DNA of 43,273 nt from a virus. Each line of letters begins with the position of its first letter. The stretch's first letter is position 1. Shown here in pieces: positions 5,680 through 30,193 of the stretch. The stretch is taken from the IMG/VR virus record IMGVR_UViG_3300037189_010516, positions 1-43,273 of that record, one strand, 5' to 3'. The notes under the pieces were generated by a model, which did not search any database, was not told the origin of the DNA, and saw only the letters and a program-made list of their open reading frames with translations. Both the position numbers and the translations under genes were made by a program.

Positions 5680-5911
5680 TAATGTCTTCTTTATAATCTA
5701 TTGTAGCATCTGTTAGATACTGCATGCTCATAGAATCTACCAAAACATTATCAAATTGAAAATCATCTTCGTTGACTGTGTCGTCTATGGTAAATCCATA
5801 TTGCATACCACTGCAACCGCCACCTTGCACAAATGCACGGACGTACTTGCTACCATCTTCTAATAAGATGTCTGCTATTTTGATCTTTGCAGATTCTGTA
5901 ATGGTAATCAT
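5603..5911 (-). CDS. A-type Fe-S cluster carrier (IscA/ErpA/HesB)
   Basis: 102 residues, the standard family length. The three cluster-binding cysteines are present: C33 in [12 protein letters not shown], and C93 and C95 in TTCGCGSSF near the C-terminus. The family accepts Fe-S clusters from a scaffold and delivers them to apo-enzymes. Its ATG overlaps the halogenase stop by 4 nt (ATGA), so it is translationally coupled to a flavoenzyme rather than to an Fe-S enzyme. A second A-type carrier starts at 7225 on the other side of the halogenase. Seven radical SAM enzymes elsewhere in the window are plausible clients; that link is inference. Confidence 0.92.
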
Positions 5912-7164
5912 AATATCATTCTTCCACCAGTATTTAAGTTGCGTTCTACGGCCTCGAGTGTTTTCTTGTTCTTTTCAGGATCTGTAAAATAGTTATAGCC
6001 AAACTTTTTATCTATCAAGTGTAAGTGATAACCGCTAAACACCCAACTTTCAGCAAAGTGCGGTAACCCATCTTGTCCTTTACGGAAGCAATCAACCAAT
6101 GCTCTTTTAAAGTGCGGGCTGTTCATTATAGTCTTAGTTGAGCGTTCTTTTGCCATACGCCAGAACGGAGTATCAAACGTACTTCCACCGTGATAGAAGA
6201 AACAGATCAAGTGCTCTAGTTGGACAGCATAGTCAATAAATCGTTCATTGACATCTTCTATTTTTAAATTGCCTTTTAAGAATTCTACAAACAAATAGTT
6301 TACATATATGTAGAAATAGATTCCTGTAGCTGTAATAGGTTCAAAGAAAATAGCACGGTTGCCGTTTTTAAGAACGTTGCCTTCAAATACAGTTTTTGCG
6401 TAGTAGCTATTAAAATGATAGTCAACTGGCGCACCTTTGCGTCCGATCTTATCCGGAGTTGTATTGAATATTTGAGCCATGTCTTCTAGAGCTTCTTCTC
6501 TAGTAGTTACAGTATCATTATACATATAACCGTGTGTATGTCTAGTAGTCAGCGGTACTCCAAACATCCAGCCATTTTTTGTAGCCATATGTTCAGTGTA
6601 CTGCCAGTTGCCAGGTTCTTCTACAGTATGTATGATTCCACTGTTAATGCTAATGCCTTCTGCAATATTATACTGATCCCAATCTGTAGGGCTTCCTCTA
6701 GTATCAACTACGAAGTCAAAGTACTCAACGCGGCCGTCAATAGTTATATTAACTCCGCGGGCTAGATTTTCTAAGCTAGAAACTGTGCCTTGCATTAGAC
6801 TAAACTTGTTAGGCCAACGCTCTAGACATTTTTTAAACACATATTCTTTTAACTTAAAGTTATTGATATGTATAGCTACACCACCATCTAGCAGTGGATT
6901 AAACCAATCCTTCTCACGCCAGTTGATAAACTTATTACCAAACTTTAGTGTGCTGTCCATTTCATGAAGATCTTCCATGAATTCAAACCCGCATGCCTGT
7001 TCCAATACTGTAATAAATCCAGAATTAGTACTTTCACCTATTTGAAACATAGGAATGTTAGGGTCATGTATGTTTACAATCTTTATCCTGTTGGGAACGT
7101 TTGCACAGAGTTGTGCAGATGTAATTACCCCGGCTGATCCTGCTCCTAATACGGCTATTCTCAT
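5908..7164 (-). CDS. flavin-dependent halogenase (tryptophan halogenase family)
   Basis: 418 residues. The FAD-binding GxGxxG is at 7-12 (LGAGSAG). It is followed by IGESTNSGF, the family's GExT segment. K74 in [12 protein letters not shown] aligns with the catalytic lysine of PrnA (K79 in the SYKxAIKFxNW context). The WxWxIP fingerprint appears degenerate as WMFGVP (199-204). [11 protein letters not shown] (274-284) aligns with PrnA EPLESTGIYF, so the position of PrnA E346 is threonine here. DTPFW (331-335) is conserved. The family uses FADH2, O2 and halide to make a hypohalous species. A cyanophage member (VirX1) is known to iodinate diverse substrates. It leads the operon with the IscA-type gene and an oxygenase. 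A late box lies at 7206-7213. Confidence 0.88.
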
Positions 7165-7205
7165 ATTGTTTTTCTTTATAGTTTTATGCGCTAAATATAG
7201 GTAGA

Positions 7206-7213
7206 TATTTATT
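7206..7213 (-). promoter_or_regulatory. late-type box (AATAAATA) upstream of the halogenase
   Basis: AATAAATATC on the minus strand, ending 41 nt before the halogenase ATG. The predicted leader is about 35 nt, which is ordinary for a T4-like late promoter. On the plus strand CTAAATA at 7191-7197 is a weaker candidate for the divergent gene at 7225. Confidence 0.5.
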
Positions 7214-9358: not shown

Positions 9359-12300
9359 ATGAGTGATTTAATCGAATACATTGTAATTGTACACAACATC
9401 GAAGACAAGCAGGCCTTGCATGATGAAATTATTAATCTAGGCGGAAGCGAATGTGTGCCCGACAGGGAAGTTGATTGCTGTCTTAATCCAACGACCAGTC
9501 GCAATACTCATTATATGATGACCGAGGCCGAGGCCGAGCTTATTAAACAAGATCCAAGAGTGTGGGACGTTAGCAGAACATGGCAAGACCTAGGACTATC
9601 AGTAGGCCACTTCAATGTTAGCTATTCTCAAATTAGCAATCACTTCAGCAAAGGTAACACACAAGCATCAACAGACGTTAACTGGGCGTTACTTCAGGTA
9701 TTAGAAGGACAGAATAGATTCCAGTGGGGTAACGACAGTCCTATACAACTATTTGATGTAGCCGCTTCTATCACCGTTCCTTTCAGTGGAAAGAACGTAG
9801 ACATAGTAGTTGTAGATGGCCATGCTGATCCAGCACACCCAGAATTTGCAGTTAACGCAGACGGAACAGGTGGATCCAGATATAATCAGATCAATTGGTT
9901 AGCATATACTAATGCAATTTTTAATGGAACTAACGGCACGTATGTTTATACTCCGTATGGCGGAACTGCCGCGTCGGCAATAGATTCTTTATTAGAAGCT
10001 AATAACAATCACGGAACTCACGTAGCGTCTAGCTGTGCAGGAAATCAACAAGGTTGGGCTCGAAGCGCAAACATATACAATATTGGTTTTGGTTTTCCTG
10101 ACAGCAATCCAACTAATTCTACAACCAATGCTTATATTAACAGCTACTTTTTTCAGTATGTAAAGTACTGGCATCAAAATAAAACTGTTAATCCTAGCAC
10201 AGGAACACGTAATCCTACAATCTGTACCAACAGCTGGGGATATACTTCTACAGTACCTAGAACAGATATTCTTGCAGTAAATTATCAAGGCACACTTTAC
10301 CAAGCGCCGGCGGGAGGTTTTAGTGCGGCTCAACTGGCTACTTACGGTATTCCTTGTTTTGATGGTACTAACTGCTCGGTACCTGCTAGATATACTCCTA
10401 TGGAATCTCAAATAACTGATCTCATCAATGCCGGAGTTATTATGATAGGAGCCGCAGGTAACAACGGAGCTTATATTGCAAGAGATACAGCATCCAGTAC
10501 TGATAATAATTATTTCAACAGTTTCCTTGCCTCTGGGGGGAATACATACTATTATTGCAGAGGTTCAACACCTAGCGCAGTTACAGGTGTTATTAACGTA
10601 GGAGCATTAGATGCATCATATACTACAGCTAAGACATATTTTAGTAATTGCGGCCCTAGGGTCGATGTATATTCTCCAGGTTATAACATAACAGGTGCAT
10701 TTAGCACATTTGCTGGACTATCATACGAAGGATATCCGCAGGGCGTAGCTGACCCAAGGAACTCAGGTTATTCTATTGGTAAAGTACCAGGTACCAGTCA
10801 AGCGACTCCGCAAGTTGCAGGGTTAGTTGCGTGTTTGCTAGAAGCGTTCCCTACAGCTGGTCCAGCAGACGCACTTAGCTACATAACTGCTACAGCAAAA
10901 ACTGGTCAAATGGTTAGTGGTCAATTTATATATAACGGGTTTGATTACAGTAGCATACAAGGCGGGAACAATCGAGTCCTGTACGCAAGTTTTCCAAATT
11001 CACCCGTAGCATCAGTCGCACTATCTACAGTATCTGTTAAGACAGGAAGTCAAGTAAAATTTACACCTGTGATAGGTTCAGGTGGTGTTGGACAACTAAC
11101 CTACACTATATCTCCAAATCTTCCTACTGGTACTACGTTCCAAGGATGGATTGAATCTATACCTGGAAATACATCTTACTCATTTTTCCATGTAACGTCT
11201 AGTAATAGCAGTTCAATTCAACAAGGTGATTCTATCAGCGGGTCTGGTGTTACTCAAGGATCTTTTTTAGAATGGCCAACAGATGCTTCTAAAACTACTT
11301 GGACTATCCGTCCTGGCTACAGCGCCAATGTAGGTTCAGCAGGTAGTCCTATTTCTATTAATAACGGATTTCATATTAATTCTCTTACAGGAGAAATTAC
11401 TGGAAGAGTTTCCAACGTATTAGGATTAACAACATATTCTGTTACAGTTACAGGCAATAACATATCAACATCTGCGTCATTTAATCTAAGAGTTAACACA
11501 GAAGCTTCTCCTACTGTAACTACCGAAGTACCATACGGAACTGATCTATTACAACGTTGTGATATCTATCAACAAACTGGTGTTACTCCGCAAGGAGTTA
11601 TTATATGGGTACACGGCGGTGGATGGTCAGGTGGAGCAAAATCTCCTTATGGATTTAACTCTAGCCAAGGCGGTTATTGGATCAACGATTACGATCAGAT
11701 TAATCAATTAGCCAAGCAAGGTTATATTGTTGTTAACTGTAACTATCGATTAGCTACTGCTGGCACTGACTACATACCTTCTGGTGGTACTACTAACAAC
11801 TACCATCCAGCAGGAGCGGCTGATATTGAAACAATAATACAATTCTGTACTGTTGCAAATGCTGGTTCTTCTTACAGTGCGTTATGGAATCAGATCGTAA
11901 ATGCAGTTAACACGTATGGATTGATAATTTCAGGAGCAAGTGCGGGCGGACATCTAGTTGCGTTTGCAGGAATGAAATATATTAATGACTACGGCAATAA
12001 CAAAATTACTGCAATATGTCCTATTGTAGGACCAACTGACCTTGATTGGGTAACATTAAATGATACATCAATAACACAAACTGCAAAAGATATTGTTGAC
12101 AATTATGTAAACAGTGCCAGTCCAGTTGCCCTACAGGCAGCGAGTCCTAGATACATATACGGATCAGATAGCTCTCCAGGCTATGTACACAATGCGGTAA
12201 AAAATTCTACTGTAAAATGGATTTTTATCAATAACCTTAACGATACATTAGTACCGCCAGCATTGACTGATAATTTTATTAATACCTTACAAGCTGAATT

Positions 12301-13711
12301 AGGAAACAATAGAGTTACCTCAATTAAACTTAACGAAGGAAGCAAGGCATATACTGAAATAAATCACAATCTAGCATCGCCAATTTCTGTATTAGTTGAA
12401 ACTGCGGCAAATCTAGCTTTTGGAATTGTAGCCACGATTGCAATATCATCTAAACAAGTTTCAGTAGGATCGTCTACAACATTTACACCTGTAACATTTA
12501 CAGGCGGTAGTGGTGTTAAGACATACAGCATTTCACCAGGTTTACCAGGCGGCTTAAATTTTAATACTTCTACAGGAACAATATCAGGAACTCCTACATT
12601 AAGTTCTCAAACTACAGCTTATGCAGTTACAGCTACAGACGCTGCCGGTAAGAGTGTTTCTGCCATATTTACTTTAGCTGTGTTAGCAGTTGGCGGTGGA
12701 AGTGGTGCTGTAGTCAATCACAATGATTGGAACCTATTACAAACTAAGGTAGCTACAGTTTTAGGAGCACCAAGTGGTAGCACTGTAGATGCAGGGTGGG
12801 GACAGCAATCGAGTATTGTTAGTAGTCAAATTTCTGCTTATCAGGAAATTACTGGAGTAGAGTTTAATCAAATAGCAACAGATGTCGATACATGCTATCA
12901 ACACATCAACAATACTCGATATCAACCTTATTCTAGATCACCTACGCCTCCAATTTATTATCTAGTAACTCAAGCAGACTATACAGAATTATCAGGCAAA
13001 GTTGATTATGTATATTCAAACAGAACGACAGTTTCTCCAACTAAACTAACAAATTCTTCATGGACTGCACAAACAGGTTCTGTTGCATTTAATCAAATAC
13101 TTGGTTATGCTTATCAGGTTGAATTTGCAAACAACGCCGCCTTTAGAAGTTTTTGGAATGCAGGTGGATCAATAAATTGGAAATTTGCATTTGGTAATAC
13201 CGCCGGTAATCCAATTAGTCAAGGTTGGACAGACTTACTAGGTAACATGGGGTCATTTACTCTTACTAAAGATGCGTTTTATCAATCCGGACAAGCTATA
13301 TCTTATCCTGCAACTATAGGGTTCACAGGTGGAGTTTACGGTGGAAACATGTTAGTAGCCCCAAATCCTATTGCTAATCCGGGAATTACAAAATCAGCTA
13401 TAGTATATGAAGCTGATGCACATTACACAAGCAGTTTCTTTTCTATGTGGGTTGGGCTAGACAATGGCGACTTATTCCAAGCAAAATCAATCTATGTGAT
13501 AATGGCATTAGCTAATCAGTACTCAGGCACTGGTGGTTCTAACAGCACATCATCTGGTAATGCTATGATACGCCAAATTTTAACATATCCTTTCAATAAT
13601 CAGCCTATTGGTCAGACCCATGCGTATAATTACATAGACGGTACTACAAATTATTCTGCATACTATAACGGTATTGAGCCGAATAATCCTTTTGTAACAG
13701 GACCGTTCTAA
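9359..13711 (+). CDS. subtilisin-like protease / Ig / esterase / virion-module fusion
   Basis: 1450 residues, the largest gene here. About 1-75 resembles an I9-type propeptide (IEYIVIVHNIEDKQALHDEI, then TEAEAELIKQDPRVWDVS). About 140-545 is a subtilase with D153 (VVVDGHADPAHPEF), H218 (NNNHGTHVASS), oxyanion N368 (GAAGNNG) and S480 (GTSQATPQVAG). About 552-712 is Ig-like with an insertion. About 718-1022 is an alpha/beta hydrolase of the HGGGW carboxylesterase type, with HGGGW 752-756, S861 in GASAGG, D962 (NLNDTLVP) and H1003 (EINHNL). About 1023-1110 is a second Ig-like repeat (SPGLPGGLNFNTSTGTISG). About 1118-1450 is the virion module shared with the two preceding genes. Both catalytic triads look complete. 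No signal peptide is visible. AGGA precedes ATG 9359. I infer a particle-borne enzyme that cleaves peptide and ester bonds at the host surface. An assembly protease is the alternative. Confidence 0.85.
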   Translation: MSDLIEYIVIVHNIEDKQALHDEIINLGGSECVPDREVDCCLNPTTSRNTHYMMTEAEAELIKQDPRVWDVSRTWQDLGLSVGHFNVSYSQISNHFSKGNTQASTDVNWALLQVLEGQNRFQWGNDSPIQLFDVAASITVPFSGKNVDIVVVDGHADPAHPEFAVNADGTGGSRYNQINWLAYTNAIFNGTNGTYVYTPYGGTAASAIDSLLEANNNHGTHVASSCAGNQQGWARSANIYNIGFGFPDSNPTNSTTNAYINSYFFQYVKYWHQNKTVNPSTGTRNPTICTNSWGYTSTVPRTDILAVNYQGTLYQAPAGGFSAAQLATYGIPCFDGTNCSVPARYTPMESQITDLINAGVIMIGAAGNNGAYIARDTASSTDNNYFNSFLASGGNTYYYCRGSTPSAVTGVINVGALDASYTTAKTYFSNCGPRVDVYSPGYNITGAFSTFAGLSYEGYPQGVADPRNSGYSIGKVPGTSQATPQVAGLVACLLEAFPTAGPADALSYITATAKTGQMVSGQFIYNGFDYSSIQGGNNRVLYASFPNSPVASVALSTVSVKTGSQVKFTPVIGSGGVGQLTYTISPNLPTGTTFQGWIESIPGNTSYSFFHVTSSNSSSIQQGDSISGSGVTQGSFLEWPTDASKTTWTIRPGYSANVGSAGSPISINNGFHINSLTGEITGRVSNVLGLTTYSVTVTGNNISTSASFNLRVNTEASPTVTTEVPYGTDLLQRCDIYQQTGVTPQGVIIWVHGGGWSGGAKSPYGFNSSQGGYWINDYDQINQLAKQGYIVVNCNYRLATAGTDYIPSGGTTNNYHPAGAADIETIIQFCTVANAGSSYSALWNQIVNAVNTYGLIISGASAGGHLVAFAGMKYINDYGNNKITAICPIVGPTDLDWVTLNDTSITQTAKDIVDNYVNSASPVALQAASPRYIYGSDSSPGYVHNAVKNSTVKWIFINNLNDTLVPPALTDNFINTLQAELGNNRVTSIKLNEGSKAYTEINHNLASPISVLVETAANLAFGIVATIAISSKQVSVGSSTTFTPVTFTGGSGVKTYSISPGLPGGLNFNTSTGTISGTPTLSSQTTAYAVTATDAAGKSVSAIFTLAVLAVGGGSGAVVNHNDWNLLQTKVATVLGAPSGSTVDAGWGQQSSIVSSQISAYQEITGVEFNQIATDVDTCYQHINNTRYQPYSRSPTPPIYYLVTQADYTELSGKVDYVYSNRTTVSPTKLTNSSWTAQTGSVAFNQILGYAYQVEFANNAAFRSFWNAGGSINWKFAFGNTAGNPISQGWTDLLGNMGSFTLTKDAFYQSGQAISYPATIGFTGGVYGGNMLVAPNPIANPGITKSAIVYEADAHYTSSFFSMWVGLDNGDLFQAKSIYVIMALANQYSGTGGSNSTSSGNAMIRQILTYPFNNQPIGQTHAYNYIDGTTNYSAYYNGIEPNNPFVTGPF

Positions 13712-13720
13712 AGGTGACTA

Positions 13721-14062
13721 ATGGATGAAAGACTGGTAAAAGCATTAGAGCATGCTGAGTATAGGCAAACTCTAGGAATCGAAAGACAACGACTAAAAGA
13801 CAAAGCACATGCAGAACTTGTTATAGGTTATAGCGGTGGCATGTTTACTGTTGATCGTACTTTGATTGGTTTTATAAACTCTATCAAAGAATACGGTTCC
13901 GCTGTTATATTAGACGACAACGGATATCCTGTACAAATCGACGACCTGGAAGAATTCCAGTCTCGAGTAGTCAGTACATATTTTGAAGTTACCAATAGAT
14001 ATCTCACAGACTACAACGAAATCAAACAAAAAAGAACAGCGGCCAAACTGGTAGATCTATGA
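13721..14062 (+). CDS. conserved-looking small phage protein, unknown function
   Basis: 113 residues. It is mainly alpha-helical by composition: MDERLVKALEHAEYRQTLGIERQRLKDKAHAEL at the start and FEVTNRYLTDYNEIKQKRTAAKLVDL at the end, with a short hydrophobic middle (GSAVILDDNGYPVQI). I do not recognise a named family. A strong AAAGGTGA lies before ATG 13721. It sits between the protease-esterase gene and the glycosyltransferases and overlaps the next gene by 4 nt (ATGA). The helical ends suggest a scaffold or tail-assembly partner, but nothing in the sequence proves it. Confidence 0.65.
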   Translation: MDERLVKALEHAEYRQTLGIERQRLKDKAHAELVIGYSGGMFTVDRTLIGFINSIKEYGSAVILDDNGYPVQIDDLEEFQSRVVSTYFEVTNRYLTDYNEIKQKRTAAKLVDL

Positions 14063-14865
14063 ATCAAGGATGCTGTATCTTTGCCTTTGATGGCGACATT
14101 GCATATGGCCCACAAGCAGTTCTAGCGGCCACTCTAGTTAAAAAGTATCTCAACATACCTGTAACTCTTATTACAGACAAACTAACTTCAAGCAATACTA
14201 ACTGCACTATTTTTGATCAAGTTATTATTATTGAGATAGAAGATACAGATAACTCACGTGTGTTATCTGGCAGAAACATTTCATTTAAAAACATCAATAG
14301 AAATAGAATTTACGATATTACTCCGTACGATAGGACATTACTAATTGATAGCGACTTTCTAGTATTCAGTGACCGATTAAAACCTTACTTGGATAGTGAT
14401 AACGATTTCATGATATGTGAAAGCATGAAAGATTTATGCCCAAGAAGACCTGGGGGCGATGTTTGGTTCAGCCCATCAAGTCTTCATATGCTATGGGCAA
14501 CAAATATTATATTCAACAAAACACCTGAAAACAAAATACTGTTTGATCTAGTAGAACACGTTAGAGAGAATTGGCAATGGTATGGGACACTTTATCAGTT
14601 TGATACTAGAAGATTTAGAAACGACTATGCATTTACAGTTGCATGTCATATAATGAGCGGGTTTGGCTGTGAAAAATATCATGTGGCGTTACCTAGTCCT
14701 ATCTTAATCACTGATAGAGACTCTTTAGTAAAAATAACCAACACAAGCATGACATGGGTACTGGGCGAACAAAATACGCTTGTCAAAACAACCAATCAAG
14801 ATATTCATATGATGAATAAAATTGAATTGTTAGAAAAAATAGATACCTTTACATTATATGATTGA
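14059..14865 (+). CDS. GT-A-like glycosyltransferase (pair 1, copy a)
   Basis: 268 residues. An N-terminal hydrophobic strand and Gly/Ala turn (CIFAFDGDIAYGPQAVLAATLVKKYLNIPVTLITD) are followed by ITPYDRTLLIDSDFLVFSD around 95-113. The DSD there is a DxD-type metal and nucleotide-sugar motif typical of GT-A enzymes such as GT8. It is paralogous to the next gene, whose equivalent is HTPYKETVFIDGDFLFLND. A third shared block is an aromatic WQWY/DTRRFRNDYAF region. The enzyme would transfer a sugar from a nucleotide donor; donor and acceptor are unknown. It is coupled to the upstream gene by ATGA and overlaps the next by 8 nt. Confidence 0.65.
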   Translation: MNQGCCIFAFDGDIAYGPQAVLAATLVKKYLNIPVTLITDKLTSSNTNCTIFDQVIIIEIEDTDNSRVLSGRNISFKNINRNRIYDITPYDRTLLIDSDFLVFSDRLKPYLDSDNDFMICESMKDLCPRRPGGDVWFSPSSLHMLWATNIIFNKTPENKILFDLVEHVRENWQWYGTLYQFDTRRFRNDYAFTVACHIMSGFGCEKYHVALPSPILITDRDSLVKITNTSMTWVLGEQNTLVKTTNQDIHMMNKIELLEKIDTFTLYD

Positions 14866-15721
14866 AAAGCTATTAGACAAAGGCTATTTTATGATAGCTA
14901 ACAGTACTAAAGAAACAAACTATCTTAAGTTAGCGTATATAACTGCACTGACTATAAAATTAACACAGCCCGAAGGGTTTAACAATGTAAGCATTGCTAC
15001 AACAAAGGTAAAGAACGCACAGGCTTTAAAGTTATCTTGGGTATTTGATCAAATTATAGACTACGAAGGCCCTAAAGGAATGAATGCTAGATCAAGAGCA
15101 TACGAGCATACTCCTTATAAAGAAACAGTATTCATTGACGGAGATTTCTTATTCCTTAATGATGTTAGCCACTGGTGGACTCATATGCAGAAACACGACC
15201 TGTGGTGTGCAACTCGCCCTATGACGTTTCGTAATGAAACAATGACCAGCAAGTACTATCGAAAAGTCTTTCTTGACAACAACTTGCCAGACTTTTATTC
15301 TGGTTGGTTGTACTTTAAACAAAGCAGAGAAACATCTAAGTTCTGGGATATGATGCGAGCCTTAACTGATTATCCAGAGACATGGAAATCACAATTAATT
15401 AACTACAACTTTGAAAGTATTCCTACTGACGAAGCATGTGCGCTGGCCGCAAAGATGTTAGACATGGTTGAGGACATGAGTGATCCAAATTTACCATTTC
15501 CTAGATTCACTCATATGAAATCTAAATCGCAAGGGTTTGGTGATCATGCAACTAACTGGACTGATTACATAGCATTTCATTACAACAAAGACTTTAATGT
15601 AAAAGTTGGTCCTTATTTCCAGCAAGACATTTTACATTATACACAGAAAGATCTAATTAGTGAAAACTTTATTAATATGTTAGAGGACAAGGTATGGAAC
15701 AAGTACAAAGACATTATGTAA
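14858..15721 (+). CDS. GT-A-like glycosyltransferase (pair 1, copy b)
   Basis: 287 residues. The layout is the same as the preceding gene: an N-terminal segment with YITALTIKLTQPEGF, then HTPYKETVFIDGDFLFLNDVSHWW (about 85-108) containing the D-G-D motif, and later YNFESIPTDEACALAAKML, which fits the region that binds the acceptor in GT8-like enzymes. The pair probably arose by duplication. The end overlaps the next gene by 28 nt. The function as a sugar transferase is inferred from the fold-type motif; the acceptor could be phage DNA, a virion protein or the host surface. Confidence 0.65.
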   Translation: MIEKLLDKGYFMIANSTKETNYLKLAYITALTIKLTQPEGFNNVSIATTKVKNAQALKLSWVFDQIIDYEGPKGMNARSRAYEHTPYKETVFIDGDFLFLNDVSHWWTHMQKHDLWCATRPMTFRNETMTSKYYRKVFLDNNLPDFYSGWLYFKQSRETSKFWDMMRALTDYPETWKSQLINYNFESIPTDEACALAAKMLDMVEDMSDPNLPFPRFTHMKSKSQGFGDHATNWTDYIAFHYNKDFNVKVGPYFQQDILHYTQKDLISENFINMLEDKVWNKYKDIM

Positions 15722-16254
15722 AATTTAATTCTTCTACATTAGATATCCAGTCCATGGGCGTTCATTACACAGAAGAACCAGAGTTTAGCGTATTAGAAGT
15801 AGAATGGAAATTAATAGAACCGTTTTTTGTTGATTTAAAAAATATACACGAGTACTATCCTTTAATTGAAAATAATTCAATTGTAGGTTTTAGACGTAAA
15901 AGGATGTTTAATAGTAGCGTTGTTAAGAATGACGATCTCGAAACAGTTAAGTCTATCAGACCTTATGAAAATTTCATAGCAGACTGTGCTATACTTGCAC
16001 AACTAACTGGTAAAACTCTAAAGCTGACTTACGATCAATATCATTTTGATAATATTACCAATCAAGAGAATATCGAAAGATTGACTTTAGTTAAGGAAAA
16101 AGTATATAATATACACATTACAGAAAAGGGTAATCCCTACAATCTATACGACACCAAAGAGATTCAAGTAACTAACTTTATCAGTGGTGTGCCTGTAGAA
16201 TTGCCCTACGAAGGTCCAAGCCCAATATCAGTTTATGTCGTTGCTAAAAATTAG
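15694..16254 (+). CDS. hypothetical protein within the glycosyltransferase cluster
   Basis: 186 residues. It has no membrane segment, signal peptide or catalytic motif that I can recognise. Its composition is mixed beta/alpha with a C-terminal region of short strands (VYNIHITEKGNPYNLYDTKEIQVTNF, then VPVELPYEGPSPISVYVV) suggesting a beta-sandwich end. It overlaps the previous gene by 28 nt and the next by 20 nt, so it is translated as part of this operon. It may be a structural or accessory protein. Confidence 0.6.
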   Translation: MEQVQRHYVKFNSSTLDIQSMGVHYTEEPEFSVLEVEWKLIEPFFVDLKNIHEYYPLIENNSIVGFRRKRMFNSSVVKNDDLETVKSIRPYENFIADCAILAQLTGKTLKLTYDQYHFDNITNQENIERLTLVKEKVYNIHITEKGNPYNLYDTKEIQVTNFISGVPVELPYEGPSPISVYVVAKN

Positions 16255-17110
16255 TGAGCTAGATTGCATATTCATCTCATACGATGAACCAAATGCAGAA
16301 TTAAACTATGCAAGACTATTGCAGGAGGCACCTTGGGCAAAACGTGTACACGGTGTTAAAGGTAGTGATGCGTGTCATAAGGCTGCGGCTAATCTAAGCG
16401 ATACTGATTGGTTTGTTACTGTTGATGCAGATAACATCGTTAATCCTAAATTTTGGGATTTGGAAATTGATTTAGACAAGTACCCAAACGCACAAGCATT
16501 TAACTGGCCAGGGCGTAACAATATTAACGGACTGCGTTATGGTAACGGCAGTCTTAAAGCATGGCGCAAAGAATTTGTGTTGAACATGCGAACACACGAA
16601 GCCGCAGAAGAAGATAAAGGTCAAGTAGACTTTTGTTGGGAGGCAGGATACTATCCTCTCACTGTTAGCTATTCAGATACTATCATAAACACTACTCCTT
16701 TGCAAGCATGGAGAGCAGGTTTCCGTGAAGGAGTCAAAATGTGTTTAGATCGTGGCATCCGCCTTGAGCAAGGTAAACCTGCAAAAGATGTCATATGGTG
16801 GGAAAACCTACATAGATTGAAACAGTGGCTTACATTAGGTATACATGTTGACCAGGGTGCATGGGCAATCGTTGGAGCATGGCAAGGTGTTTATCTTACT
16901 ATGTGTACTGATTGGGACATTACCAATGTTCGAGACTTTGAAATTCTAAATGAAATGTTTGATAAGATATTTGGAACAGATCCATTAGAACTAATTCAAA
17001 TGTATCAACTAAAGGCAAAAGATTTTATTAGTGTTCCTGTTCTTAATGCAGATACAAGCGCATACGTAGTGAACACATTTGACGAGTTTTACAGGCTTAA
17101 TCGTGTATGA
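16235..17110 (+). CDS. GT-A-like glycosyltransferase (pair 2, copy a)
   Basis: 291 residues. CIFISYDEPNAELNYARLL opens the protein, followed by AKRVHGVKGSDACHKAAA and TDWFVTVDADNIV (about 57-69), whose DAD is a DxD motif like those of GT2/GT-A enzymes. The next gene repeats each block in the same order: FISYGEPNAEENY, TKRVKDVKG, FWVVDGDAQI. C-terminal blocks shared with it are AWRAGFREG versus TWRSAFREC, and a LGIHVDQGAWAIVGAW segment. The two proteins are clear paralogues and distinct from pair 1. A sugar or related transfer reaction is inferred from the DxD context. Confidence 0.65.
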   Translation: MSLLKISELDCIFISYDEPNAELNYARLLQEAPWAKRVHGVKGSDACHKAAANLSDTDWFVTVDADNIVNPKFWDLEIDLDKYPNAQAFNWPGRNNINGLRYGNGSLKAWRKEFVLNMRTHEAAEEDKGQVDFCWEAGYYPLTVSYSDTIINTTPLQAWRAGFREGVKMCLDRGIRLEQGKPAKDVIWWENLHRLKQWLTLGIHVDQGAWAIVGAWQGVYLTMCTDWDITNVRDFEILNEMFDKIFGTDPLELIQMYQLKAKDFISVPVLNADTSAYVVNTFDEFYRLNRV

Positions 17111-17804
17111 TTTAATTTTTATCAGTTACGGAGAACCAAACGCTGAAGAAAACTATCAGCGTGTTAAATCAAGGTTTCCTCTTACTAAGCGTGTTAAGGA
17201 TGTTAAAGGTATACATCAAGCACACATTAAAGCCGCACGTATGAGCTTTACTGAAATGTTTTGGGTCGTCGACGGCGATGCACAAATACTAGATTCATTC
17301 AGCTTTGATTACAAAGTACCAGAATGGGATTTAGAATGTGTGCATGTGTGGCGCAGTCGCAACCCGCTTAATAACTTAGAGTACGGCTACGGTGGCGTTA
17401 AACTACTACCTAAGAAGCTTACTATCAATATGGATTTAACCAAGCCTGATATGACTACCAGTATTAGCACCAAGTTTAAAGCAATGCCAGAAGTCAGCAA
17501 TATTACTGCATTTAATACAGATGCGTTTAGTACATGGCGTTCAGCATTTAGAGAATGTGCTAAGTTGTCTAGCAAAATTATTGACGGTCAAGTAGATACT
17601 GAAACTGAAGATAGGCTAGATACATGGTGTCATCTTAATACTGATATACCATTTGGCGCACACGGATATGCAGGAGCATTAGCCGGAAAGAAATTTGGTC
17701 TTGAGCATGTTGCAGAAATAAGTAAAATTAACGATTACAGCTGGCTAAGAGAACAATATGAAAAAACTTTTAAAAATACTAATGACTCCGTGGCAGTGGT
17801 ATAA
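17103..17804 (+). CDS. GT-A-like glycosyltransferase (pair 2, copy b)
   Basis: 233 residues from the GTG at 17103 (VYDLIFISYGEPNAEENY). This start overlaps the previous stop by 8 nt and lines up with the N-terminus of the paralogue. A TTG at 17079 is possible but would add an unaligned extension. FWVVDGDAQI (about 48-57) carries the D-G-D motif. TWRSAFRECAKL and PFGAHGYAGALAG match the C-terminal blocks of copy a. It is shorter than copy a by about 58 residues, mostly at the C-terminus. Its end overlaps the 33-residue ORF by 47 nt. Confidence 0.62.
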   Translation: MYDLIFISYGEPNAEENYQRVKSRFPLTKRVKDVKGIHQAHIKAARMSFTEMFWVVDGDAQILDSFSFDYKVPEWDLECVHVWRSRNPLNNLEYGYGGVKLLPKKLTINMDLTKPDMTTSISTKFKAMPEVSNITAFNTDAFSTWRSAFRECAKLSSKIIDGQVDTETEDRLDTWCHLNTDIPFGAHGYAGALAGKKFGLEHVAEISKINDYSWLREQYEKTFKNTNDSVAVV

Positions 17805-17859
17805 GTCACAAAAGCGTCTTAAAGCGTTAGCAAAACAAGATCCATTTATATACAAATGA
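17758..17859 (+). CDS. 33-residue basic micro-protein
   Basis: ATG 17758 to TGA 17857-17859. It begins MKKLLKILMTPWQWYKSQKR and ends PFIYK, and is very basic with an amphipathic N-terminal helix. It bridges the glycosyltransferase and the carbamoyltransferase: it overlaps the former by 47 nt in another frame, and its stop overlaps the carbamoyltransferase ATG as ATGA. The ATGA junction argues that it is translated, since the carbamoyltransferase start has no other Shine-Dalgarno context. A membrane-surface anchor or adaptor role is possible but unproven. Confidence 0.55.
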   Translation: MKKLLKILMTPWQWYKSQKRLKALAKQDPFIYK

Positions 17860-19346
17860 TTACTTGGGGGATATCAGCTAACAGTCATAATGCGGCCGTT
17901 GCCGTGTTTGCTGACGAACATCTGATATTTGCTTCAGAGACAGAACGCTGGAGCGGAATTAAAAACGATCCTAATCTTAATAAAGATCTAATCTACTATC
18001 TAAACTCTCGCAACCTTACTCCTGATCGTGTAGTTTGGTACGAAAAGCCTTTGCTGAAAACATTTAGACAACTTGAAGCAGGCCAAGGCTGGCGCTATCG
18101 AGAAAACAATATCAAAAAATATTTAAAAGAGTATCTACCAAGTACACCTATAAAGTATATAAGCCATCACAAAAGCCATGCGGCTGGTGGGTACTGTACC
18201 AGCGGGTTTGATCAAGCCTGCATACTTGTAATAGATGCTATTGGAGAATACGAAACACTTACCATATGGAGTGGGGAAGGTAGTAAGTTAACTAAACTAT
18301 ACAGCTTAGAGTATCCAAACAGCATAGGACTTTGGTATAGCGCAATGACACAGCGATGTGGGTTGGCGCCAAACGAAGAAGAGTATATCCTAATGGGCAT
18401 GGCCGCATACGGCGACCCTAAGAAATACTTTAATAGAATATTATCAGACTTCTTTAGTTTCCCCGATGATGAATGGAATCATATTTTTCGTTTGAAAGAA
18501 AACCTACATCGTGGATGCAGGTCATGGGCACTGGAACTTAGCACAGAGCAAGATTTATTTGACATCGCAGCCGCAACACAAGCAGTGTACGAAACAGTAT
18601 TTGAACGTGTTCTACAGTACGCTACAAAATTATCATCAAGCCGTAATTTAGTATTCATGGGCGGATGTGCGTTAAACTGTGTAGCAAACAAACTAACTGG
18701 CAAGTATTTTGATAATACATGGATAATGCCAGCGCCGGGCGATAGTGGTAGTGCTATTGGTGCGGTATATGCATCAAAGCCGCATTGGCGAATGCAACCG
18801 TATGAATTCACTCCATTGCTTGGATACGAGATGCGTGGAAATGCAAACAACTACGAAATTGTATCTTATCTAGAAAAGAATCAGATATGCGGCGTTGCTA
18901 GAGGTCAAGCAGAATTTGGGCCACGTGCATTAGGTAACAGAAGCCTGCTTGCAGATCCACGTGGTAATGATATAAAGGAAAAAGTAAATGCAATTAAACA
19001 ACGACAACAATTTAGACCATTCGCTCCCGCAATTTTGGAGGAGTTATGTGACACTTACTTTGATATGCCTAGCGGTTGGAATAACAGTAGGTATATGCAA
19101 GTCGTCGCTCGTTGTAGGGTTCCTTACTTATTTCCTGCTATCGTTCATGCTGACGGGACTTCTCGTGTTCAAACTGTCCCAAAAGATGGAAGCAAGTTTA
19201 GAGAACTCTTAGAACTATGGTATGCTCGGACAGGATGTCCTATGTTGCTGAATACCAGCTTGAACATTAAAGGCAAGCCAATGGTAAACAGTAGGGATGA
19301 TGCGTTAGATTTTCAAAACACTTACAATATTAAAGTGTTTACGTAG
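17856..19346 (+). CDS. NodU/CmcH-family carbamoyltransferase
   Basis: 496 residues. The N-terminal Kae1/TsaD-like half has HHKSHAAGGY (104-113), the metal and carbamoyl-AMP histidine motif, and VIDAIGEYETLTIW, then GGCALNCVANKL. The C-terminal half has AEFGPRALGNRSLLADPR (about 349-366) and a NTSLNIKGKPMV end, all diagnostic for O-carbamoyltransferases such as NodU, CmcH and TobZ. These use carbamoyl phosphate and ATP to carbamoylate hydroxyl groups of sugars or small molecules. T4-like cyanophages often carry this gene. Its place after four glycosyltransferases suggests that it carbamoylates a sugar made or moved by them; that link is inference. Confidence 0.93.
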   Translation: MITWGISANSHNAAVAVFADEHLIFASETERWSGIKNDPNLNKDLIYYLNSRNLTPDRVVWYEKPLLKTFRQLEAGQGWRYRENNIKKYLKEYLPSTPIKYISHHKSHAAGGYCTSGFDQACILVIDAIGEYETLTIWSGEGSKLTKLYSLEYPNSIGLWYSAMTQRCGLAPNEEEYILMGMAAYGDPKKYFNRILSDFFSFPDDEWNHIFRLKENLHRGCRSWALELSTEQDLFDIAAATQAVYETVFERVLQYATKLSSSRNLVFMGGCALNCVANKLTGKYFDNTWIMPAPGDSGSAIGAVYASKPHWRMQPYEFTPLLGYEMRGNANNYEIVSYLEKNQICGVARGQAEFGPRALGNRSLLADPRGNDIKEKVNAIKQRQQFRPFAPAILEELCDTYFDMPSGWNNSRYMQVVARCRVPYLFPAIVHADGTSRVQTVPKDGSKFRELLELWYARTGCPMLLNTSLNIKGKPMVNSRDDALDFQNTYNIKVFT

Positions 19347-22249: not shown

Positions 22250-23404
22250 TTAATATAATTTACTAAAATCTAGTTCGCTAACATCATTAGAATATAATTG
22301 GTATCGAACTGGCGGATGATCTGGTAAGGTCATCTTTTTATTTGTTTCTATATCTCTTCTTATAACTTGATGTAAGAAATTTGTTAGACCGTCGCTTGTA
22401 AAGTTACAATAAGGGCCACTACGCAACTCCTCCATGTGTATATCTGTTTCATCACACCATTGAATTAATCTAAATAATTGCCCATCTATCTTCACCATTA
22501 CATGATATATGTTATCGTCCCAGTTAGCTAACTCGAATGTTTTGTTATGTTTGGCGCACCAATCTTTAGTAATTTTATAAATGTCACTCACGTACATACG
22601 CTCTTGTTCAGGATATCGTCCAATATCGCTTCCGTATCGTATTCTAAACATTACTGGGTTCCAATTACTTGATGTCGTTTCTTCAAGTATATCTTCTAAC
22701 TCGCTAATGCTACTCATTGTGTAACTGATGTAGGCCAATGGCATGCCAAGTGTGTTTGCGTTTTCAATTGCAGTTATTTGTTTATTCCTAATAGTCTTAT
22801 TGTCTAGGTAACTTGGATGATTCAATCCTATGCATAGCCCATATAATCCTGCTTGCTTACAACTTGATAAAAAATCTATATCTGCAAACCTAATACCGTT
22901 AGTCATAACCAATAGCTCGTGCCACTTAAATGTATCTACTATTTGTTTAATTAACAAAATAAAATCTTTATGTAAACTTGCTTCTGCTCCTGCAAGCATT
23001 AATCCTGTTCCAGGACGATACCATTTTGCAATTTGATTGACTATTTCATCTACACTCTTATCAACAATTTTATTATCTGGCATATGATAGCAATGTGGGC
23101 AATCAGCATTGCATTTATCGCTAACTTCAAATAGTACACAGTTAGTTTCAAATTTGCTTTTATCTGGATTTAGCGTAGTTAAAAAATTATAGTCACGCTC
23201 TATCATATGATGACTAACTCCGTGAAGAACACAACTCTTTGATAACCACAGTTGATTATCTTTATGATATGTGTATGCAGGAATGTGTTGATGGCATTGA
23301 TGGCACAAACTTACTGTAGGTGTTAATACTGTACCATCTATATTTGTCAATGCAACATCACAGTTGTTACTTGCAAATTGATTGAATTTGGTTATAACAT
23401 TCAT
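22250..23404 (-). CDS. radical SAM enzyme, Tes/MJ0619-like
   Basis: 384 residues. The 4Fe-4S motif is C98xxxC102xxC105 (KCNADCPHCYH). In front is a separate metal-type knuckle, C34xxC37 plus C58 and H61 (LCHQCHQHIPA, KSCVLHGVS), as in archaeal tetraether-lipid synthase-like (MJ0619 family) radical SAM proteins. LMLAGAEASLHKDF corresponds to the GGEP segment that holds the SAM amino group, with Ala-Gly-Ala-Glu replacing Gly-Gly-Glu-Pro. The protein at 29150 repeats the whole layout. The family attacks inert C-H bonds. The ATG overlaps the upstream hydroxylase stop (ATGA). Confidence 0.85.
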   Translation of the reverse strand: MNVITKFNQFASNNCDVALTNIDGTVLTPTVSLCHQCHQHIPAYTYHKDNQLWLSKSCVLHGVSHHMIERDYNFLTTLNPDKSKFETNCVLFEVSDKCNADCPHCYHMPDNKIVDKSVDEIVNQIAKWYRPGTGLMLAGAEASLHKDFILLIKQIVDTFKWHELLVMTNGIRFADIDFLSSCKQAGLYGLCIGLNHPSYLDNKTIRNKQITAIENANTLGMPLAYISYTMSSISELEDILEETTSSNWNPVMFRIRYGSDIGRYPEQERMYVSDIYKITKDWCAKHNKTFELANWDDNIYHVMVKIDGQLFRLIQWCDETDIHMEELRSGPYCNFTSDGLTNFLHQVIRRDIETNKKMTLPDHPPVRYQLYSNDVSELDFSKLY

Positions 23405-29149: not shown

Positions 29150-30193
29150 ATGAATAAGATATCCGATACTGTATCACTATGTGAACATTGTTATAGGCAT
29201 ATACCTGCTGTAACATTTCAAAAAGACGGATCAGTATGGATAGGTAAAACCTGTAAAGAGCATGGCTACTTGGAACACCTAGTTGAACCAGATGCTAACT
29301 TTTATATTAACTATCAATATACAAAAAAGACACATACTGCATACTTTATTGAAGTTACTAACAAATGCAATTTAGCATGCCCTCATTGTTATCAACTACC
29401 AGATAACACAAGTGCTGACCCAGACATCGATTATATATTAACGCAAATTAAGTCATGGCCAGATGATGGTTATGTTATATCATTAGCAGGGGCAGAACCT
29501 ACTACACGAAAAGACTTAGACGTATTGATTAGGCGCATACAATCATTGCCTGGAAAGCCGCGCACTATTATTGTGTTGACAAATGCAGTGAACATGTCTA
29601 AAATTGAATATGCACAAAAGTTTGTAGGACTTGAAAACGTGTTTTGGACGATAGGTCTGAACCATCCTGATTATCAAGGACACACAGTTCGTGCTAAACA
29701 AATGCAGGGCATTAAAAACTGTGTTGACTTAGGACTATCGATTAAGAATATTAGTTACACACTTGAAGGACTACATCAGCTAGAAGATTGCCTAGTTGAA
29801 ATACAAGAGTTTTACCCAACAACATGTGAACGATTTAGAATACGAGTTGGCGCTGACATTGGTCGTAATCCAGAAGGTGATCAAATATATCTAAGTCAAT
29901 TGGTTAGTGCAGTTAAAGACACATGTACTAAACGCAACTGGTCGTACAGTGAAGATATGGCAAACGGAATCAGAGCGCACTTCCCTGTTTATGTAAACGG
30001 CGTTAATATAAAATTAATACAATGGCCAGACGCTACTACTATAGATTTAGAGGAAACTCAAACAGAAACTTGGGCTGATATAATTCCCGGAAAACCTATT
30101 AGTCCGTTAGTGCATCAAGTTATGCTCAGGGATCATTTGATCAATAATAAAAATATATTGCTAGATACCGTACCAGAAAAATACAGAAGATGA
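29150..30193 (+). CDS. radical SAM enzyme, Tes/MJ0619-like, second copy
   Basis: 347 residues. N-terminal knuckle C11xxC14 (LCEHCYRHIPA) with C35 and H38 (KTCKEHGYLEH). The radical SAM motif is C73xxxC77xxC80 (KCNLACPHCYQLPDN). ISLAGAEPTTRKDL is the SAM-binding GGEP-like strand (AGAEP). IGLNHPDYQGHTVRAKQMQGI matches the copy at 22250 (IGLNHPSYLDNKTIRNKQITAI), so the two are paralogues. The protein is about 37 residues shorter. It begins an operon continuing through an oxygenase, three mini-oxygenases and a sulfotransferase, with ATGA coupling to the next gene. Confidence 0.85.
   Translation: MNKISDTVSLCEHCYRHIPAVTFQKDGSVWIGKTCKEHGYLEHLVEPDANFYINYQYTKKTHTAYFIEVTNKCNLACPHCYQLPDNTSADPDIDYILTQIKSWPDDGYVISLAGAEPTTRKDLDVLIRRIQSLPGKPRTIIVLTNAVNMSKIEYAQKFVGLENVFWTIGLNHPDYQGHTVRAKQMQGIKNCVDLGLSIKNISYTLEGLHQLEDCLVEIQEFYPTTCERFRIRVGADIGRNPEGDQIYLSQLVSAVKDTCTKRNWSYSEDMANGIRAHFPVYVNGVNIKLIQWPDATTIDLEETQTETWADIIPGKPISPLVHQVMLRDHLINNKNILLDTVPEKYRR

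Follow-up and report, generated by a model that had tools for sequence, protein, structure and literature searches.

The window, a stretch of 43,273 nucleotides corresponding to positions 1 to 43,273 of IMG/VR virus record IMGVR_UViG_3300037189_010516, carries on its plus strand an open reading frame (ORF) at 9359-13711 that begins with ATG and encodes a large protein of an uncultured tailed phage family, 1450 amino acids (aa) long, in which a predicted serine protease and a predicted acyl esterase are joined to a C-terminal module. An earlier note on this DNA had read the product as a virion-type protein with a complete protease triad and a complete esterase triad. The domain order was confirmed as an I9-like propeptide region, an S8 protease, a split immunoglobulin (Ig)-like domain, a BD-FAE-type hydrolase, a second Ig-like domain and the C-terminal module (Table 1). 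The frame is likewise uninterrupted in a 62-kb record from this phage, which has 99.9% identity across 21.7 kb, and in seven further full-length orthologues, so that a chance ORF and an assembly artefact are both ruled out. No hydrophobic signal peptide was seen by eye at the N-terminus.

Domain architecture of the fusion protein

The protease domain is matched by Pfam Peptidase_S8 at residues 144-518 (E 5.8e-21; 75.5 bits against a cut-off of 21.8) and contains an Asp-His-Ser triad, in that order, together with the oxyanion Asn. In an AlphaFold2 model of residues 1-1112, built from 35 sequences (mean predicted local distance difference test, pLDDT, 70.9; predicted template-modelling score, pTM, 0.56), residues 85-549 resemble proteinase-K-like enzymes, with a best Foldseek E of 1.7e-15 to 5wsl_A (template-modelling score 0.82 by target length) and a VIA Z of 32.0 to 8c4z_B over 275 residues (root-mean-square deviation 2.7). 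Residues 6-566 match phrog_9158 (E 1.8e-84; profile positions 7-568 of 696), a family that carries no function label in PHROGs. The Asp, His, Asn and Ser are invariant in all 46 full-length proteins of this wider subtilase family (42 distinct), in which the extra domains are BD-FAE in eight proteins (the same number as the fused orthologues entered into the set), Laminin_G_3 in four and a cupredoxin match in one. Forty of 50,697 phage records match the query, 33 of them Synechococcus, four Prochlorococcus and three Marine virus by name, and in every one the query coverage is at most 41%: isolated cyanophages have the protease part alone. The cyanophages P-HM1 and P-HM2 are described as having an S8 peptidase in common (PMC3037559). 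Residues 1-88 follow the strand-helix-strand-helix-strand order of an I9 propeptide in a segment of low pLDDT, and the Pfam scan of the fusion protein gave no I9 match.

The esterase domain is matched by Pfam BD-FAE at residues 735-950 (E 2.1e-14; 54 bits against a cut-off of 26.8), with an HGGG oxyanion motif at residues 752-755 and a GxSxG nucleophile elbow, and by the PDB profiles 4zrs (E 2e-6) and 2pbl (E 2.9e-4). D962 and H1003 fall beyond the Pfam match, and their roles are assigned by motif and position. According to DSSP on the AlphaFold2 model, a strand at 855-860 leads into S861 and a helix at 862-878 follows it, D962 comes after a strand (953-959) and H1003 precedes a helix (1009-1020), a placement of Ser, Asp and His relative to strands and helices that is the one found in alpha/beta hydrolases. 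The fold matches listed for the 1-1112 model by Foldseek and VIA are all taken up by the S8 domain. Among phage isolates the matches to the esterase part are weak and consist of mycobacteriophage esterases (33 records, approximately 24% identity), and two scans of genome contigs for a bacterial donor of the esterase found no relative. The subtilisin core (D153, H218, N368, S480) and the HGGGW-type esterase core (S861, D962, H1003) of the earlier note were both upheld, with Pfam matches above the cut-offs and with the named residues in place and invariant in all orthologues that cover them. The structural check that it proposed for the two triads came out well for the S8 fold and with moderate confidence around some catalytic positions, the block-mean pLDDT being 57 at H218, 54 at HGGG, 72 at S861, 61 at D962 and 73 at H1003. 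Its Ig-like repeats stand in part: a He_PIG match at residues 1028-1108 (E 7e-11) exceeds the curated Pfam cut-off, whereas residues ~548-716, on which Pfam makes no call, were read from the sequence and look like a He_PIG unit split by ~70 residues, in a region that is beta-rich in the AlphaFold2 model.

The C-terminal module modelled alone gave a pLDDT of 81 and a pTM of 0.83 (25 sequences), and it is indeed common to two adjacent genes, as had been claimed; these lie just upstream and match roughly the last 335 residues of the fusion protein. Three phage proteins in BFVD match it strongly (E 5.5e-16 to 1.4e-14), while Foldseek gave no match in the PDB at E <= 0.001; the VIA matches to the jelly roll of CspB (best Z 6.3) and to galectins (~5) are too weak to use. 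A profile search found the module to be widespread in uncultured phages, often in stand-alone proteins of ~280-300 aa and sometimes with long fused extensions. When phage records were searched by tblastn, the module sequences of the window and of loci L066 and L112 found no match, and that of locus L101 matched 11 Pseudomonas jumbo phages. The L101 search linked the module to EST35_0123 of Pseudomonas phage PA5oct at E 3e-9, and hhalign gives this homology a probability of 96.8% (E 2.2e-10, 179 columns). At other loci the upstream neighbours of the module match the PHROGs categories virion structural protein, tail fiber and tail collar. Two loci (L066, L067) have the same operon without the 1450-aa gene, the module genes running straight into the 113-aa gene, which suggests that the enzyme part was joined onto a third copy of the module.

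On an unrelated contig (L134:5917-11190), a 1757-aa protein has an esterase-like domain (31%, pairwise E 4e-24) followed by the module (96.5%) and by many further residues, with no Pfam protease match. Its gene adjoins a match to phrog_14394 'virion structural protein' in a virion structural gene cluster. The nucleophile site reads GAGAGG in place of GASAGG, so that Ser is replaced by Gly, and HGGT stands in place of HGGG. To judge from these sequences, the combination of an esterase fold with the module arose or survived outside the fused lineage as well, in this protein probably without catalysis.

Table 1. Features of the fusion gene and its operon in the window
Feature	Position	Strand	Details
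Protease-esterase fusion protein	9359..13711	+	1450 aa
Propeptide-like N-terminal region	9359..9622	+	residues 1-88 (approximate boundary); order of secondary-structure elements I9-like
S8 proteinase-K-like catalytic domain	9623..10996	+	residues 89-546; Pfam, Foldseek, VIA
S8 catalytic codons	D153 9815-9817; H218 10010-10012; N368 10460-10462; S480 10796-10798	+	
First Ig-like domain	11000..11506	+	residues 548-716, ~70 residues inserted; sequence pattern only
BD-FAE-like alpha/beta hydrolase	11507..12424	+	residues 717-1022; Pfam, PDB profile matches, strand-nucleophile-helix 855-878
Esterase motif codons	HGGGW 11612-11626; S861 11939-11941; D962 12242-12244; H1003 12365-12367	+	
Second Ig-like domain (He_PIG)	12425..12694	+	residues 1023-1112; Pfam
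C-terminal module	12695..13708	+	residues 1113-1450; three helices, then beta-sandwich; AlphaFold2, hhalign
Stand-alone module protein, 304 aa	7563..8477	+	27.7% to fusion residues 1119-1365, E 1.5e-13 (small local database)
Stand-alone module protein, 286 aa	8490..9350	+	29.8% to fusion residues 1115-1412, E 8e-27 (small local database)
Late-promoter-like pair	7191..7212	+ and -	CTAAATA (+) 7191-7197; ATAAATA (-) 7206-7212; facing, upstream of operon
113-aa gene, conserved module neighbour	13721..14062	+	homologue in 31/34 module-bearing loci examined
Downstream conserved block, five genes	14059..17804	+	order repeated in L003-L006, L066, L067; several glycosyltransferase-like by eye

Orthologues, selection and domain exchange

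The whole domain order is present in eight distinct full-length orthologues (the window and L003, L005, L055, L058, L061, L062 and L065), the others having 57-60% identity to the window protein; five more (L004, L054, L057, L059, L060) are cut by contig ends, and L006 and L064 contain the C-terminal end only. Wherever they are covered the catalytic residues are invariant: D153 and H218 in 9/9 sequences, N368 in 10/10, S480 and HGGG in 11/11, and S861, D962 and H1003 in 13/13. The ratio of nonsynonymous to synonymous substitution rates (dN/dS) of the S8 domain is 0.03-0.10 in each of the six pairs for which there are data. For the esterase domain, seven of eight pairs give 0.08-0.23 and the remaining one 0.51, at a dS of 0.04, where there are few changes. 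Purifying selection acts on both enzyme domains, and with invariant triads and low dN/dS, the idea that the enzymes of the fused family are dead is disfavoured.

The domains do not diverge in step with each other. The window protein and that of L062 have 74% identity in the S8 domain and 48% in the esterase, whereas the window protein and those of L055 and L005 have 53% identity in the S8 domain and 69-71% in the esterase. Between L055 and L065, dS is 0.08 in the S8 domain and 1.9 in the C-terminal module; between L061 and L065, it is 0.91 in the S8 domain and 0.03 in the module. From these opposed values it follows that the protease and the downstream parts swap independently among lineages, by recombination near the domain borders. 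The N-terminal region is more constant: residues 49-74 have a mean identity of 61% in the wider subtilase family, versus 32.5% for the catalytic residues 89-545, and residues 1-78 have 65-86% identity between exchange types among the pairs listed. Such conservation would make sense if the region had a docking or folding function that involves an unvarying partner.

Probable particle location and possible function

The virion-type character claimed for the protein is indirectly supported by labels on homologues of its parts, from which its own location on the phage particle is inferred; the late-promoter-like motif before the operon and the virion structural match beside the 1757-aa protein point the same way. 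On the side of the protease, the S-SCSM1 homologue SSCSM1_228 is annotated 'baseplate wedge subunit (virion protein)', and homologues are surrounded by genes for the tail or baseplate in S-H38, P-SSM2 and S-CREM1. A 'virion protein' label stands on 48 of the 282 coding sequences of the S-SCSM1 record, and 45 proteins of that phage, ORF91, 213 and 214 among them, were detected by mass spectrometry (PMC9602691). Since all three of these ORFs bear the label, the label probably corresponds to the mass spectrometry list, though not exactly, given 48 labels for 45 proteins. On the side of the module, PA5oct EST35_0123 is annotated 'ESI-MS/MS', which we read as particle proteomics, and a gp10-like baseplate/tail-pin gene lies two genes before it.

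The best explanation, held with moderate confidence, is that the fusion protein is a late-expressed, particle-borne, putative surface-opening enzyme that combines two chemistries on an exchangeable docking module. By homology and motifs, it would be synthesized late from a T4-type late promoter alongside the two short paralogous module proteins, and its C-terminal module, common to these two neighbours and to the presumed PA5oct particle protein, would anchor it to the baseplate or the distal part of the tail. The I9-like N-terminal region may aid folding of the S8 protease and is then probably cut off, and the Ig-like spacers may hold the two enzymes outward. At adsorption, the esterase would strip O-acyl groups from a surface polysaccharide and the protease would cut a protein of the surface, which together would open the way to the receptor; the activity, the substrates and the removal of the propeptide are predicted ones. 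Parts exposed to variable host surfaces would be expected to be exchanged between related phages, as these enzyme parts are. If this explanation is true, one particle may attack two kinds of bond on the host surface. A bolder proposal, offered tentatively and at rather less than even probability, is that the constant docking module and the constant propeptide-like cap form a chassis for two exchangeable, independently recombining cassettes, one a protease and the other a glycan esterase, in which case the enzyme combination, and not the receptor-binding domains alone, would set host range.

Several observations weigh against a particle-borne enzyme with two activities. The particle labels belong to homologues of parts, at ~24-28% identity, and the labelled coding sequences of S-SCSM1 exceed the proteins counted in the paper. 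Confidence in the model is moderate around H218, HGGG and D962. The Gly-for-Ser replacement in the 1757-aa protein implies that an esterase-like domain can persist without catalysis, which makes a binding role conceivable. The fusion gene occupies a separate operon and not the tail operon, which in this phage has a subtilase of its own, a stand-alone protein of 525 aa (L048:679-2256, minus strand) encoded in a tail-fibre-type operon ~14 kb upstream. This second subtilase lies outside the window, was seen in the 62-kb record on the strand opposite to the fusion gene and, unlike the fusion copy, shares its tail-operon location with the cyanophage isolates. Among 11 records searched, phrog_9158 occurs twice in the three whose upstream flank reaches far enough (G001, G002, G005); five others have the fused copy only, in contigs that end within ~6 kb upstream, and three fragments have no phrog_9158.

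The S8 domain could instead be an assembly or self-processing protease that matures tail or fibre proteins or frees itself, leaving the esterase alone to face the surface. The esterase-less family members located inside tail/baseplate operons would suit such a role, as would the unusual conservation of the propeptide-like region, as if it were docked on a conserved phage partner, but a subtilase is already encoded in the tail operon of this phage, the swapping of the S8 domain among close relatives would be odd with fixed phage substrates, and other members of the family (4 of 46) have lectin-like LamG domains, so that this alternative is considered unlikely. An enzyme acting off the particle is judged quite improbable, whether it remains intracellular, diffuses away as a depolymerase once lysis has freed it or edits the glycans produced by the adjacent glycosyltransferase-like genes: the homologue of the C-terminal module bears a particle-proteomics note and, in other phages, genes beside the module have matches to families of virion structural proteins and tail fibres, although the operon does run on into genes of sugar-modifying type and a Nol-like carbamoyltransferase, away from the tail operon. 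That one or both folds are of enzyme ancestry and now grip a glycan or protein instead of cutting it has a precedent in the Ser-to-Gly esterase fold on the same module, but is very improbable for a family in which the triads are invariant in all covering orthologues and dN/dS is low.

With the surface-opening enzyme as the favoured explanation, the protein may be compared with known systems. A bifunctional virion enzyme is exemplified by phi29 gp13, in which two cell-wall hydrolases occur in one particle protein; the fusion protein differs in joining a predicted serine protease to a predicted acyl esterase. The cyanophage subtilisin-like family (phrog_9158; S-H38 QPB07966.1, P-SSM2 PSSM2_297, S-SCSM1 SSCSM1_228) has the same propeptide-like region and S8 domain, but in the isolates it lacks the esterase and, in the three of them read, its genes are in tail/baseplate operons. 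The BD-FAE carbohydrate esterases (PF20434), described as feruloyl and acetyl xylan esterases (PMC8165983), are alpha/beta hydrolases whose HGGGW and GxSxG recur in the fusion protein, which scores above the Pfam cut-off of the family, and the fusion differs in that its esterase is flanked by Ig-like domains within a phage protein. Tail-borne polysaccharide deacetylases, such as Possum gp66 (PMC9569702) and those of PP99 and Aristophanes (PMC8471582, PMC6989608), are likened by description and not by sequence, with respect to the expected role of acyl removal from a surface glycan for attachment; the parts of these sources that were covered mention no protease in the same protein, whereas the fusion protein has one. 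PA5oct EST35_0123 has a homologous module, of which only the first half aligns, but at 406 aa is too short for both enzymes. The claim that no described phage protein has this order held: none was found in the 50,697 phage records, which match the protease only, or in the literature searched. Particle-borne enzymes as such are known; the protease-esterase-module order is new among these records and this literature.

Particle-borne glycan esterases are familiar, and in the portions of the literature covered the cyanophage tail-operon subtilases appear without a stated role. The fusion, on a particle-type module, ties the two together and suggests a testable role for the subtilases of cyanophages, the opening of surface layers made of protein and glycan. 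The widespread module with its varied payloads could be tracked to other surface-active phage enzymes.

Operon context and neighbouring genes

The cyanophage late promoter is described as NATAAATA (PMC2984593), and the coding-strand copy upstream of the operon reads CTAAATA rather than NATAAATA, with ATAAATA on the minus strand. CTAAATA followed 8-9 nucleotides on by TATTTAT is retained in seven of eight distinct upstream sequences despite diverging flanks, and CTAAATA is rarer in the window than chance predicts (5 found versus 14.15 expected). The canonical T4 late motif TATAAATA was rejected as the operon promoter, having only two sites in the window and none upstream of the operon. A scan of the window for Sigma-70 promoters and terminators was uninformative (27 promoter-like sites versus 23.2 expected; 4 terminator-like sites versus 4.6), as was a search for gp23 in ten related records, in which there was no match but the controls were silent too.

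Pfam assigned no family to any of the five window genes in the conserved block at 14059-17804. The conserved genes that follow the module genes (13721-17804; also at L087 and L098-L116) might glycosylate the module proteins. The operon closes with 17856-19346, which encodes a Nol-like carbamoyltransferase (phrog_1601, E 2.7e-100), and several S-SCSM1 genes are so annotated. Upstream, 5908-7164 encodes a tryptophan-halogenase-type protein (phrog_2928, E 5.5e-69) adjoining Fe-S assembly and 2-oxoglutarate-oxygenase-like genes; S-SCSM1 likewise has a gene annotated as tryptophan halogenase. A Radical-SAM-type gene (phrog_1802, E 5.3e-9) lies at 29150-30193, and the protein encoded at 22250-23404 is similar to it by eye.

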